Made by a program: the position numbers and the translations under genes
Shown: piece by piece, positions 6,171-9,068 of the stretch
How positions within the stretch are numbered: the first letter of the stretch is position 1
Layout of the letters: the number at the start of each line of letters is the position of its first letter
Assembly: GCF_025685395.1 (NCBI RefSeq)
Contig: NZ_JAGSYA010000004.1
Span: 1,116,001 to 1,180,000, forward strand
Origin: Terriglobus tenax
Lineage (GTDB): Bacteria; Acidobacteriota; Terriglobia; Terriglobales; Acidobacteriaceae
DNA: 64,000 nt
Direction of reading: 5' to 3'
Notes under the pieces: generated by a model
Told to the model about the DNA's origin: nothing
The model's input: the letters and a program-made list of their open reading frames with translations, nothing else
The model's database searches: none

Positions 6171-8507
6171 TCAAAACGCAATCGTCACCCCTGCCTGAAT
6201 ATTCCGCGGAGGCACAAAGTGCGTCCCGCTGAAGGTCGAGAGGAAGTTATACAGAGCCACTTTGTCGAACAGGTTCGTCACCGACAGCTTCATCCCCACC
6301 GATACCCTGTCCCTTCGCCACAACGCATCATCGGCCACCGACACATCCACCAGCTGCCGGGGAGCCACCCTTACGGGGTTTCTGTCATCATCCTGCGTGC
6401 CCGGTGCGGGGATCCTCACACGGTCCGCTCCAAACAACGCATAGCTGCAGTTGCGGATCGGCTGCGATGGCGTGGCATACACTCCGCCGCAGTGCAGCCC
6501 CATCTGCTGCTGCTCATCCCCAGTCAGTACAAAGGTATCGGTGTACACAGGCGTCGTTCCCGGCAACGCCAGGCCACTGTTATATCCCCATGAGAAGCCC
6601 ACCCATGGCCGATGCCCGCGCATCTTCGGCAGCGTGTAATGCAGTGCCGTCGTCTGTTCAAACTCCTCGCCATGGTCGATGCGAAAAACACTGCCCGCCG
6701 GAGTCGCGCTAAAGATCAGCCCACCCACCTGCGGCGTAAAGAACCGCGACCTCACATGGCCCATCACGCTGTAACCGCTCACGCCATGCCAGTCTTCCAG
6801 GTTCACCCGCAGAGCCAGCCCATCGATCTTTGACTTCTCCCACGCCACGCTGAAAGTCACTGGCGTATTGAACAGTGTGTCGAAATCAAAAGCCGTGTGG
6901 GTGAACTTCCAGTAGTAGTCCGCGTCCACCGTCACATACTTGCCAAACGGCTGTGCAAAGCCCACGTTGAACTGGTTGCGCGTGCCCGGCTTTACCGGCT
7001 CACTGCGATACACCGCGAACGGGTTCGAAGTCGCCGCATCCTGCCCGGCATCGTTGGCAAAGATCAGGTTCTCGTTATACGGCGTCTCGAACAGCCGCGC
7101 ATAGCTGGCTCGCAGCAACGTCTTCGCACCGGGCACGCGCCACCCGATGCCCACACGCGGCTGCAGTTGCTTTCCCGTGCTCAGCCCGTCATAGACGTCA
7201 TACCGCAGCCCCGCGCTCAGCGTTACCGCACCCAGCCGCAGTTCCTCCTGCGCGTAGACGGCAGCCTGCGCAATGCCCGCCGTTTTGGAGAAGTGATACA
7301 GCGTGCCTCCACGGCTCAGGTCATACGGCAGCAACCGGGCCTGAAAGTCGGCGTTCGCCTTGTACCCGGCAGCAGCGCACGCCTGCGGATCGCGTACGCC
7401 CGCGGCCACCACCGCATTGCCACTGCCATCCACACACACCGCATTGAACAGAGGATCCGTCAGACCGACATCGAACCGCTCATTCAGCCGTGTCTGCCAC
7501 AGCGTCCCGCCCGCCTTCAAAGTCTGCCGCCCGCGCGCATAGACTGTCTCCGCGCGCACACCCATGTTCCACAGGCTGCGATCCTGCGCCAGCGTCGCCG
7601 TCTGGTCGCGCATCTCATCGGGCGACGGCAGATACCGCGCCTGCTGCACCCGCACAAATGGCGTCACCTGCACCAGCCACTCCGGCGACACCACATGCGT
7701 CCATCCCATCGCCAGGTTGCCGCTCGTCAGCAGGCTTCGCTGCTGCTGCCCCTTCGCCTCCGTGTCAAAGCTGTTCGGCGTCTGAAAGGCTGACCTCCCA
7801 TAACCCACATTCCAGTGAATCAGGTCATTCGCATGCGGATTCCAGTCAAAGCGATTGAACACACTCTCCACGTCGCCCCTTGCATGGATCGGCCGGAACT
7901 CCGGCGTATCCAGGAAGCGATTCGAACCCGCCGCGCCTGCCGCAATAAACTCGCCCCAGCGCTGGCCGCCCTTGCTCAGCATCAATCCCTGAGACCACGT
8001 CGCAAACGACCCACCTTCACTGCTCCACTCGCCCGCCAGGGGCCTCCCCACACCCGACTTCGTCACCACGTTGATCACCAGGCTGGTCTTGTCGCCAAAC
8101 TCCGCCGGCGGCGCCCCGGTCATCGCATCCATGCGATCAATAATTCTCGGATCAATCTGGTTGGCAAAGATCTTCGCCAACTGATCGGTCATCGGCTGCC
8201 CATCCAGGGACACCGATGTATCCGCATGCTCGCCCAGCGGATGGGCAAATCCGTTCGAATCCGCCGCCACTCCCGGCGTGGTCCGTGTAATCAGGTCGGT
8301 AAAGCCGCTTCCGGTTGATGACAGTGGCAACCGCCGCACCGTTCCTCCGTCCACGACGCCATGCGCGGTCGAAGGCATCGCCTCCAGCTCCGCCTCAATC
8401 GCCCGCACGGTCACCGTCTCGGTCACGGTCTTTGGTTTCTCTTCCTGCTGCGCGATCGCACTCACGGAGAGGCACAGCAGTAATGCGGTTTTCAGGGGAA
8501 AGGTCAT
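6171..8507 (-). CDS. TonB-dependent receptor, probable metal or siderophore uptake
   Basis: This is an outer-membrane receptor of 778 residues. A signal peptide ends near residue 19 (SAIAQ). ETVTV may be the TonB box, the plug runs to about residue 160 with the VINVVTKSG segment, and a beta-barrel follows to a terminal aromatic, ending in TIAF. There is no carboxypeptidase-like domain, unlike the receptor at 38-42 kb. A paired DtxR-type operator lies one base upstream of the ATG and a DtxR/MntR-type regulator diverges from it. Iron or manganese chelates are therefore the likely cargo (inference). The AGGT of the only candidate ribosome site is inside the operator. Confidence 0.88.
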   Translation of the reverse strand: MTFPLKTALLLCLSVSAIAQQEEKPKTVTETVTVRAIEAELEAMPSTAHGVVDGGTVRRLPLSSTGSGFTDLITRTTPGVAADSNGFAHPLGEHADTSVSLDGQPMTDQLAKIFANQIDPRIIDRMDAMTGAPPAEFGDKTSLVINVVTKSGVGRPLAGEWSSEGGSFATWSQGLMLSKGGQRWGEFIAAGAAGSNRFLDTPEFRPIHARGDVESVFNRFDWNPHANDLIHWNVGYGRSAFQTPNSFDTEAKGQQQRSLLTSGNLAMGWTHVVSPEWLVQVTPFVRVQQARYLPSPDEMRDQTATLAQDRSLWNMGVRAETVYARGRQTLKAGGTLWQTRLNERFDVGLTDPLFNAVCVDGSGNAVVAAGVRDPQACAAAGYKANADFQARLLPYDLSRGGTLYHFSKTAGIAQAAVYAQEELRLGAVTLSAGLRYDVYDGLSTGKQLQPRVGIGWRVPGAKTLLRASYARLFETPYNENLIFANDAGQDAATSNPFAVYRSEPVKPGTRNQFNVGFAQPFGKYVTVDADYYWKFTHTAFDFDTLFNTPVTFSVAWEKSKIDGLALRVNLEDWHGVSGYSVMGHVRSRFFTPQVGGLIFSATPAGSVFRIDHGEEFEQTTALHYTLPKMRGHRPWVGFSWGYNSGLALPGTTPVYTDTFVLTGDEQQQMGLHCGGVYATPSQPIRNCSYALFGADRVRIPAPGTQDDDRNPVRVAPRQLVDVSVADDALWRRDRVSVGMKLSVTNLFDKVALYNFLSTFSGTHFVPPRNIQAGVTIAF

Positions 8508-8508
8508 G

Positions 8509-8539
8509 TTTAGGCTTACCTAATTTAGGTTCGCCTAAA
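8509..8539. promoter_or_regulatory. Paired DtxR/MntR-type operator
   Basis: Two adjacent palindromes are visible: TTTAGGCTTACCTAA (8509-8523) and TTTAGGTTCGCCTAAA (8524-8539), each a TTAGG-N4-CCTAA box. Their junction also forms ACCTAATTTAGGT. The half-sites match the DtxR/IdeR/TroR box type. The operator sits between the TonB receptor and the regulator gene and touches the receptor start codon, so metal-loaded repressor should block receptor expression and perhaps its own. Confidence 0.85.
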
Positions 8540-8588
8540 TAAATCACCGCGTCAACTCAATTCGCACTTCTGAAATAATGGCTTGATC

Positions 8589-9068
8589 GTGGAGAAGCAG
8601 TCCCAAAGCCGTCGCAGTGAGTCGATCGACAACTACCTGAAGGCGATCCTCGCCCTCGGTGGCGGTGACGACCATCTCGTCGGCAGCAAGCAGATCGCCG
8701 ACCGGCTCGGCATCGCACCCGCCTCCGTCACCAATATGCTGCAGCGCCTGGCCGCGCAAACCCGTCCCATGGTGAAGTATGAGCGGCACAAGGGCGTCAG
8801 GCTCTCCGCCATCGGACGCAAGCGCGCACTCGAGATCGTGCGGCATCATCGCCTCATCGAGACCTTCCTCTTCGAAGTTCTGGGCTACAGGATGGAAGAG
8901 TTGCACGACGAGGCCGAGCGCCTGGAGCACTTCATCTCCGAGCGCTTCGAAGAGCGCGTCGCCGCACGGCTCGGCAACCCTACGCAAGACCCCCACGGCC
9001 ACTGCATTCCCGCGCTGGACGGATCGATGCCCGCGCAACACGGCATCAGTTGCAACTGCTACGTCTAG
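8589..9068 (+). CDS. DtxR/MntR-family metal-dependent transcriptional regulator
   Basis: The first 70 residues form the winged helix (SIDNYLKAIL, SKQIADRLGIAPASVTNMLQRL, YERHKGVRLSAIGRKRAL). The next 70 are the metal-binding dimerisation domain, with the RHHRLIETFL helix and DEAERLEHFISER, ending in DPHGHCIP. It lacks the SH3-like third domain of DtxR, so it is MntR/TroR-sized at about 159 residues. A GTG at 8589 and a TTG at 8583 are both possible starts; neither has a clear ribosome site. The Cys-containing tail CNCYV is unusual. Iron versus manganese cannot be decided by eye. Confidence 0.9.
   Translation: MEKQSQSRRSESIDNYLKAILALGGGDDHLVGSKQIADRLGIAPASVTNMLQRLAAQTRPMVKYERHKGVRLSAIGRKRALEIVRHHRLIETFLFEVLGYRMEELHDEAERLEHFISERFEERVAARLGNPTQDPHGHCIPALDGSMPAQHGISCNCYV

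Follow-up and report, generated by a model that had tools for sequence, protein, structure and literature searches.

Results

Organization of the locus

Within the window, by which we mean the whole 64-kb stretch of DNA analysed here, two palindromic boxes lie between divergent genes, one for a receptor-like protein on the minus strand and the other, mntR, on the plus strand. The features of the locus are as follows.

6171..8507, minus strand: outer-membrane TonB-dependent-receptor-like protein, 778 aa, with a signal-peptide-like N-terminus; ATG at 8507-8505
8510..8523, no strand: box A (receptor-proximal), TTAGGCTTACCTAA, an exact 14-bp DtxR/MntR-type box
8518..8530, no strand: junction palindrome ACCTAATTTAGGT, lost in relatives with wider spacing
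8519..8521, minus strand: AGG in box A, 11 nt from the receptor ATG and the closest to it of the ribosome-site-like triplets
8525..8538, no strand: box B (mntR-proximal), TTAGGTTCGCCTAA, an exact 14-bp box
8538..8543, minus strand: TTTATT, a weak -10-like hexamer directly adjoining box B and aligned with the TAGAAT/TATAAT/TATATT of relatives; fails the sigma-70 scan
8550..8555, minus strand (that of the receptor): TTGACG, -35-like, starting 17 bp before the box
8571..8579, plus strand: TGAAATAAT, extended -10-like element, 8-9 nt before the mntR GTG; recurs upstream of mntR in relatives
8589..9068, plus strand: mntR, DtxR/MntR-family regulator, 159 aa; starts at GTG 8589, with TTG 8583 also possible

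A scan of the window for TTAGG-N4-CCTAA returns two exact copies, 8510-8523 and 8525-8538, with a single base between them. A first-order Markov model built from the window predicts 0.008 exact boxes and 1e-9 abutting pairs per 64 kb; with one mismatch allowed, shuffled sequence gives 0.49 expected matches against the two observed, both of them exact; and the reversed control pattern yields no pairs in 396 genomes of the phylum. On these grounds, and on that of the conservation described below, we rejected a chance origin, and the two boxes reported by the first-pass annotation are confirmed. Two base pairs (8508-8509) separate the 14-bp core from the receptor ATG, and the one-base distance originally given is recovered if the outer T/A of TTTAGG..CCTAAA is included. 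Both boxes conform to the TTAGGNNNNCCTAA palindrome of DtxR/IdeR-type operators, as the half-site type assigned at first reading implied, and binding to them is predicted. This 14-bp consensus, to which the earlier 19-bp IdeR site was reduced in Saccharopolyspora erythraea, is bound by one dimer in gel shifts (PMC8464063), and we therefore read the window as containing two separate one-dimer sites. We judge the element to be a real and conserved operator that looks functional; its class is known, its position unusual.

A third palindrome had been described at the junction of the boxes. It is indeed present, but any CCTAA beside a TTAGG creates one, so it is a by-product of box abutment; it is not conserved in relatives, and we rejected it as a functional site.

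The receptor and the regulator

The receptor-like protein matches OMP_b-brl_4 above the cut-off and Plug below it (0.018). A Plug domain was found in all 11 receptor homologues (best 8e-5), and profile matches to TonB receptors were obtained (6ofr, 5e-8; 6v81, 3e-4), which together support the initial description of a TonB-receptor-like outer-membrane target. Its sole NCBIfam match is a weak haem-receptor model. The other receptor homologues encoded in the same genomes of the genus carry no boxes. In other genera of the family the outer-membrane proteins beside box pairs vary, some being 39-61% identical to the window receptor and others giving no match to it at 1e-5. In the window's own genome a second receptor homologue (G000:C4:2070685-2072925, L195), 45% identical and without a box of its own, lies about 7 kb from the boxed mntH gene considered below.

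The product of mntR contains PF01325 (Fe_dep_repress N-terminal, 5e-12) and PF02742 (Fe_dep_repr_C, 3e-27), both above cut-off, and its closest solved structure is 8pvt ("iron dependent repressor, putative", E 3e-38), so the neighbouring gene does belong to the DtxR/MntR family, as had been proposed. Its best NCBIfam model is that for MntR (NF047407), which it matches at 155 bits, below the equivalog cut-off of 350. Matched by eye, the protein carries the AExxEH motif, Glu included; this is the MntR-type motif, and DtxR has Cys at that place. The residue that we take, by eye, to correspond to Asp8 of Bacillus subtilis MntR is Asn in the window regulator and in 17 of 28 orthologues, with Asp in the other 11, and the selectivity for Mn is uncertain for this reason. 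Among the regulator and its orthologues, the short forms end in a Cys-x-Cys tail (CNC, CRC or CQC).

Boxes in the genome and in relatives

The exact 14-mer occurs four times in the 4.36-Mb genome, always in pairs of 15-bp period: one pair between the receptor gene and mntR, the other ahead of an Nramp gene, mntH (PF01566, 2e-117), and 9 nt from its start. In three close relatives a pair of 15-bp period is likewise found at mntH, 6 nt ahead of the GTG. One 16-mer with a single mismatch (G000:C4:6697-6712; L163, about 1501-1516), between L14- and L24-like ribosomal protein genes, was excluded from the regulon as probably a chance match.

Among 19 genomes of the genus, an mntR orthologue is present in 12, each of which carries boxes, single or paired, ahead of mntH or of a receptor homologue. 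Boxes were found in only one of the seven genomes that lack the orthologue (G013, a fragmented assembly), an association with a Fisher p of 0.00026, to be read in the knowledge that the species are related and the events not independent. G004, G010, G011, G015, G017 and G018 have neither mntR orthologue nor boxes, and most of them retain mntH; the mntH of G007 lacks a box despite the presence of mntR. Other genera of the family have their pairs either at mntH or in the interval that separates mntR from a gene for an outer-membrane protein. The search of related genomes that the first-pass annotation had suggested finds the boxes conserved in the genus wherever mntR is present, and in other genera of the family as well. 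The metal control it had proposed gains support from the association with mntH and with the presence of the regulator (12/12 versus 1/7), which is predicted to bind these sites. Given the boxes at mntH, the co-occurrence with mntR and the unboxed state of the other receptor homologues, the pairs most likely define an MntR-type regulon for Mn uptake comprising mntH and the outer-membrane receptor.

Similar pairs occur far from this phylum. In many Actinomadura a pair of 15-bp period is found (L063 2267-2295, L108 461-489, L113 2027-2055, L121 7951-7979 and others), several lying about 12 nt upstream of an S4-like ribosomal protein ORF, an unexpected place for a metal box. In archaea, including Marine Group III (L059, L068, L060, L061, L110, L123), pairs stand between a DtxR-like gene and a gene for an FTR1-like iron permease or a lipoprotein-like product, some loci carrying a third box, which suggests that archaea use the pair for iron.

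Start codons and promoters

The receptor cannot start earlier than the ATG at 8507-8505: the box contains a TAG in the same reading frame, 13 nt from its end, and between that stop and the ATG there is no start codon. AGG-type ribosome-site candidates for this gene occur only within the boxes, as the first-pass annotation had observed. Across the receptor loci of the genus the box and the start codon are in contact, with distances of 0, 0, 0, 0, 1, 1, 2, 2, 2 and 3 nt in 10 of 11 cases; the exception is G007, whose ATG lies between the boxes. Contact is not universal, the receptor start being tens of bases downstream of the boxes in several other genera. At mntH the overlap goes further: in five species the box encloses the GTG (TTAG-GTG-AGCCTAA), and TATACT or TATGCT precedes that codon by 7-8 nt. 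This is how leaderless genes are laid out, with a -10 hexamer about 10 bp upstream and no Shine-Dalgarno (SD) sequence, a pattern less clear at the window receptor. For G008 and G003 the in-box GTG is the sole usable mntH start, there being no further ATG, GTG or TTG ahead of the conserved Nramp core.

The -35-like element at the receptor has counterparts in about a dozen relatives, where TTGACA/G/T starts 16-18 bp before the box. A standard sigma-70 scan of 8450-8650 found no promoter, and our promoter assignments therefore draw on comparison only. The candidates seen would give the receptor a leader of about 7-24 nt; since the promoter is weak by consensus, the length is not fixed, and the leader would be short under any of them. 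Ribosome-site usage in the window, at 6 of 35 mechanical starts against 2 of 35 in the background, is a noisy measure. About 13% of genes are predicted to be leaderless in three Acidobacteria genomes (PMC3160421). It had been argued that either the receptor mRNA is leaderless or the operator also forms part of its leader, and the ten start contacts and five in-box GTG codons point the same way: leaderless or near-leaderless mRNAs with a box over the start appear to fit best.

Discussion

Overall, we consider it probable that the paired boxes are a tandem MntR-type operator through which the metal-loaded product of mntR represses both the receptor gene and mntH, and that these genes are read from leaderless or very short-leadered mRNAs. 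When Mn(II), or possibly Fe(II), is sufficient, the DtxR-family protein encoded by the adjoining gene would bind with one dimer on each 14-bp box, covering the presumed transcription start and the start-codon region of the receptor gene and turning the outer-membrane receptor off. At the equivalent pair upstream of mntH the same protein would turn off the inner-membrane importer, and because the sites at both genes are the same, the two are probably shut off together. When the metal is scarce the repressor would leave, and both uptake steps would be made. In this lineage of Terriglobus-type soil Acidobacteria the receptor and mntH messages would have leaders that are absent or very short, which would explain how the boxes can press against the start codon and, in relatives, contain it. 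We are evenly divided over a bolder proposal, that metal box and translation start have merged, one sequence serving as repressor site, transcription start region and leaderless start codon, as TTAG-GTG-AGCCTAA at five mntH genes might be read, with a second box as an optional addition upstream or downstream.

Which metal is sensed, and which gene the operator serves, admit of other answers. The boxes might form an IdeR/DtxR-like operator for iron, with a receptor that imports the metal as such or in a complex: their sequence matches the IdeR/DtxR consensus, pairs of 15-bp period lie beside FeoA/FeoB-like, FTR1-like and DtxR genes (named by eye) in other phyla, and the only NCBIfam match of the receptor, though weak, is to a haem receptor. 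The only other exact boxes of this genome are nonetheless at mntH; the motif of the regulator is of the MntR type, at the place of the DtxR Cys, and its best NCBIfam match, albeit below cut-off, is an MntR model. Partly because of the Asn at the Asp8-matching position, and with DR2539 (see below) sensing both Mn and Fe, we leave iron control a small share of the probability and regard it as quite unlikely. Less probable still is that the operator serves mainly for autoregulation of mntR, with the receptor an incidental neighbour, as its place between divergent genes and the adjacency of mntR to pairs in many relatives might suggest. In G002, G009, G016, G003, G008 and G014 the pair remains with the receptor homologue and mntR lies elsewhere. 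Moreover, the boxes touch the receptor start, and TGAAATAAT, common to relatives whose mntR does not adjoin a pair, lies near the mntR start about 33 bp beyond them; the operator is thus probably off the mntR core promoter and would act mainly on the receptor.

Two further readings are compatible with the repression model and concern its details. The AGG of box A may be a ribosome-binding site, in which case the receptor would have an ordinary led mRNA that the operator merely overlaps. An AGG does lie 9-12 nt before the start wherever contact is 0-3 nt, and in several loci a -10-like hexamer abuts the first box; at the same time, the receptor ATG of G007 falls in the gap between the two boxes and precedes the second AGG, and the in-box GTG of mntH in five relatives leaves no room for such a site, so that we find this reading doubtful, if less so than those concerning metal and target. 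It is unlikely, in turn, that the 15-bp arrangement reflects a fixed, cooperative complex of two dimers on opposite faces of the helix. In its favour, the 19-bp IdeR site, which can be read as two 14-bp sites shifted by 5 bp, is occupied by a pair of dimers on opposite sides of the DNA (PMC8464063), and 15 bp, close to 1.5 turns, recurs in five pairs from four species (the window pair and four mntH genes). Yet the period at equivalent genes elsewhere is 17, 18, 19, 20, 21, 22 or 23 bp, a range that spans opposite to same face, and seven mntH genes in relatives have a single box. With period and box number this variable, the operator is unlikely to depend on a fixed opposite-face contact, and the first-pass suggestion of dimer pairs on both faces does not survive as a required geometry.

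The abundant and little-studied Acidobacteria of soils would gain a concrete Mn (or Mn/Fe) regulon, comprising an outer-membrane receptor and mntH. This contrasts with a study of Granulicella that listed mntR-like ORFs and attributed Mn homeostasis to some other, unidentified regulator (PMC7315648). The lineage also offers natural cases in which the bases of a predicted repressor site are those of a start codon, useful for studies of leaderless initiation and of operator evolution. In the literature searched, which extended to papers available without subscription, we came across no description of such a pair placed on a start codon.

The boxes share with the IdeR/DtxR site of S. erythraea (PMC8464063) an identical 14-bp consensus, bound there by one dimer per site. 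In the classical two-dimer box of that system, however, two such sites overlap at an offset of 5 bp; those of the window do not overlap, follow each other at 15 bp (17-23 bp in relatives) and lie on the start codon. DR2539, a DtxR homologue of Deinococcus radiodurans, represses mntH through an inverted repeat there when Mn or Fe is supplied (PMC3327659), and the window regulator is likewise a DtxR homologue predicted to bind at mntH; the passages of that account consulted here mention no box pair at the start codon of a receptor gene. MnoT of Burkholderia thailandensis, as cited in PMC13217887, is a TonB-dependent Mn transporter for outer-membrane uptake, the role that we propose for the window receptor. 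MntR control of a TonB receptor is already known from Stenotrophomonas maltophilia, where MntR controls mntH and a TonB receptor in a TBDR-pTFP module (PMC13217887); in both systems an MntR-family regulator has predicted binding sites at mntH as well as at the gene of a TonB-dependent receptor close to mntR. Unlike the boxes of the window, the 25-bp MntR box of S. maltophilia lies 75 bp upstream of the start, between -35 and -10, and its receptor is of the CQNC type with a thioredoxin-fold partner.
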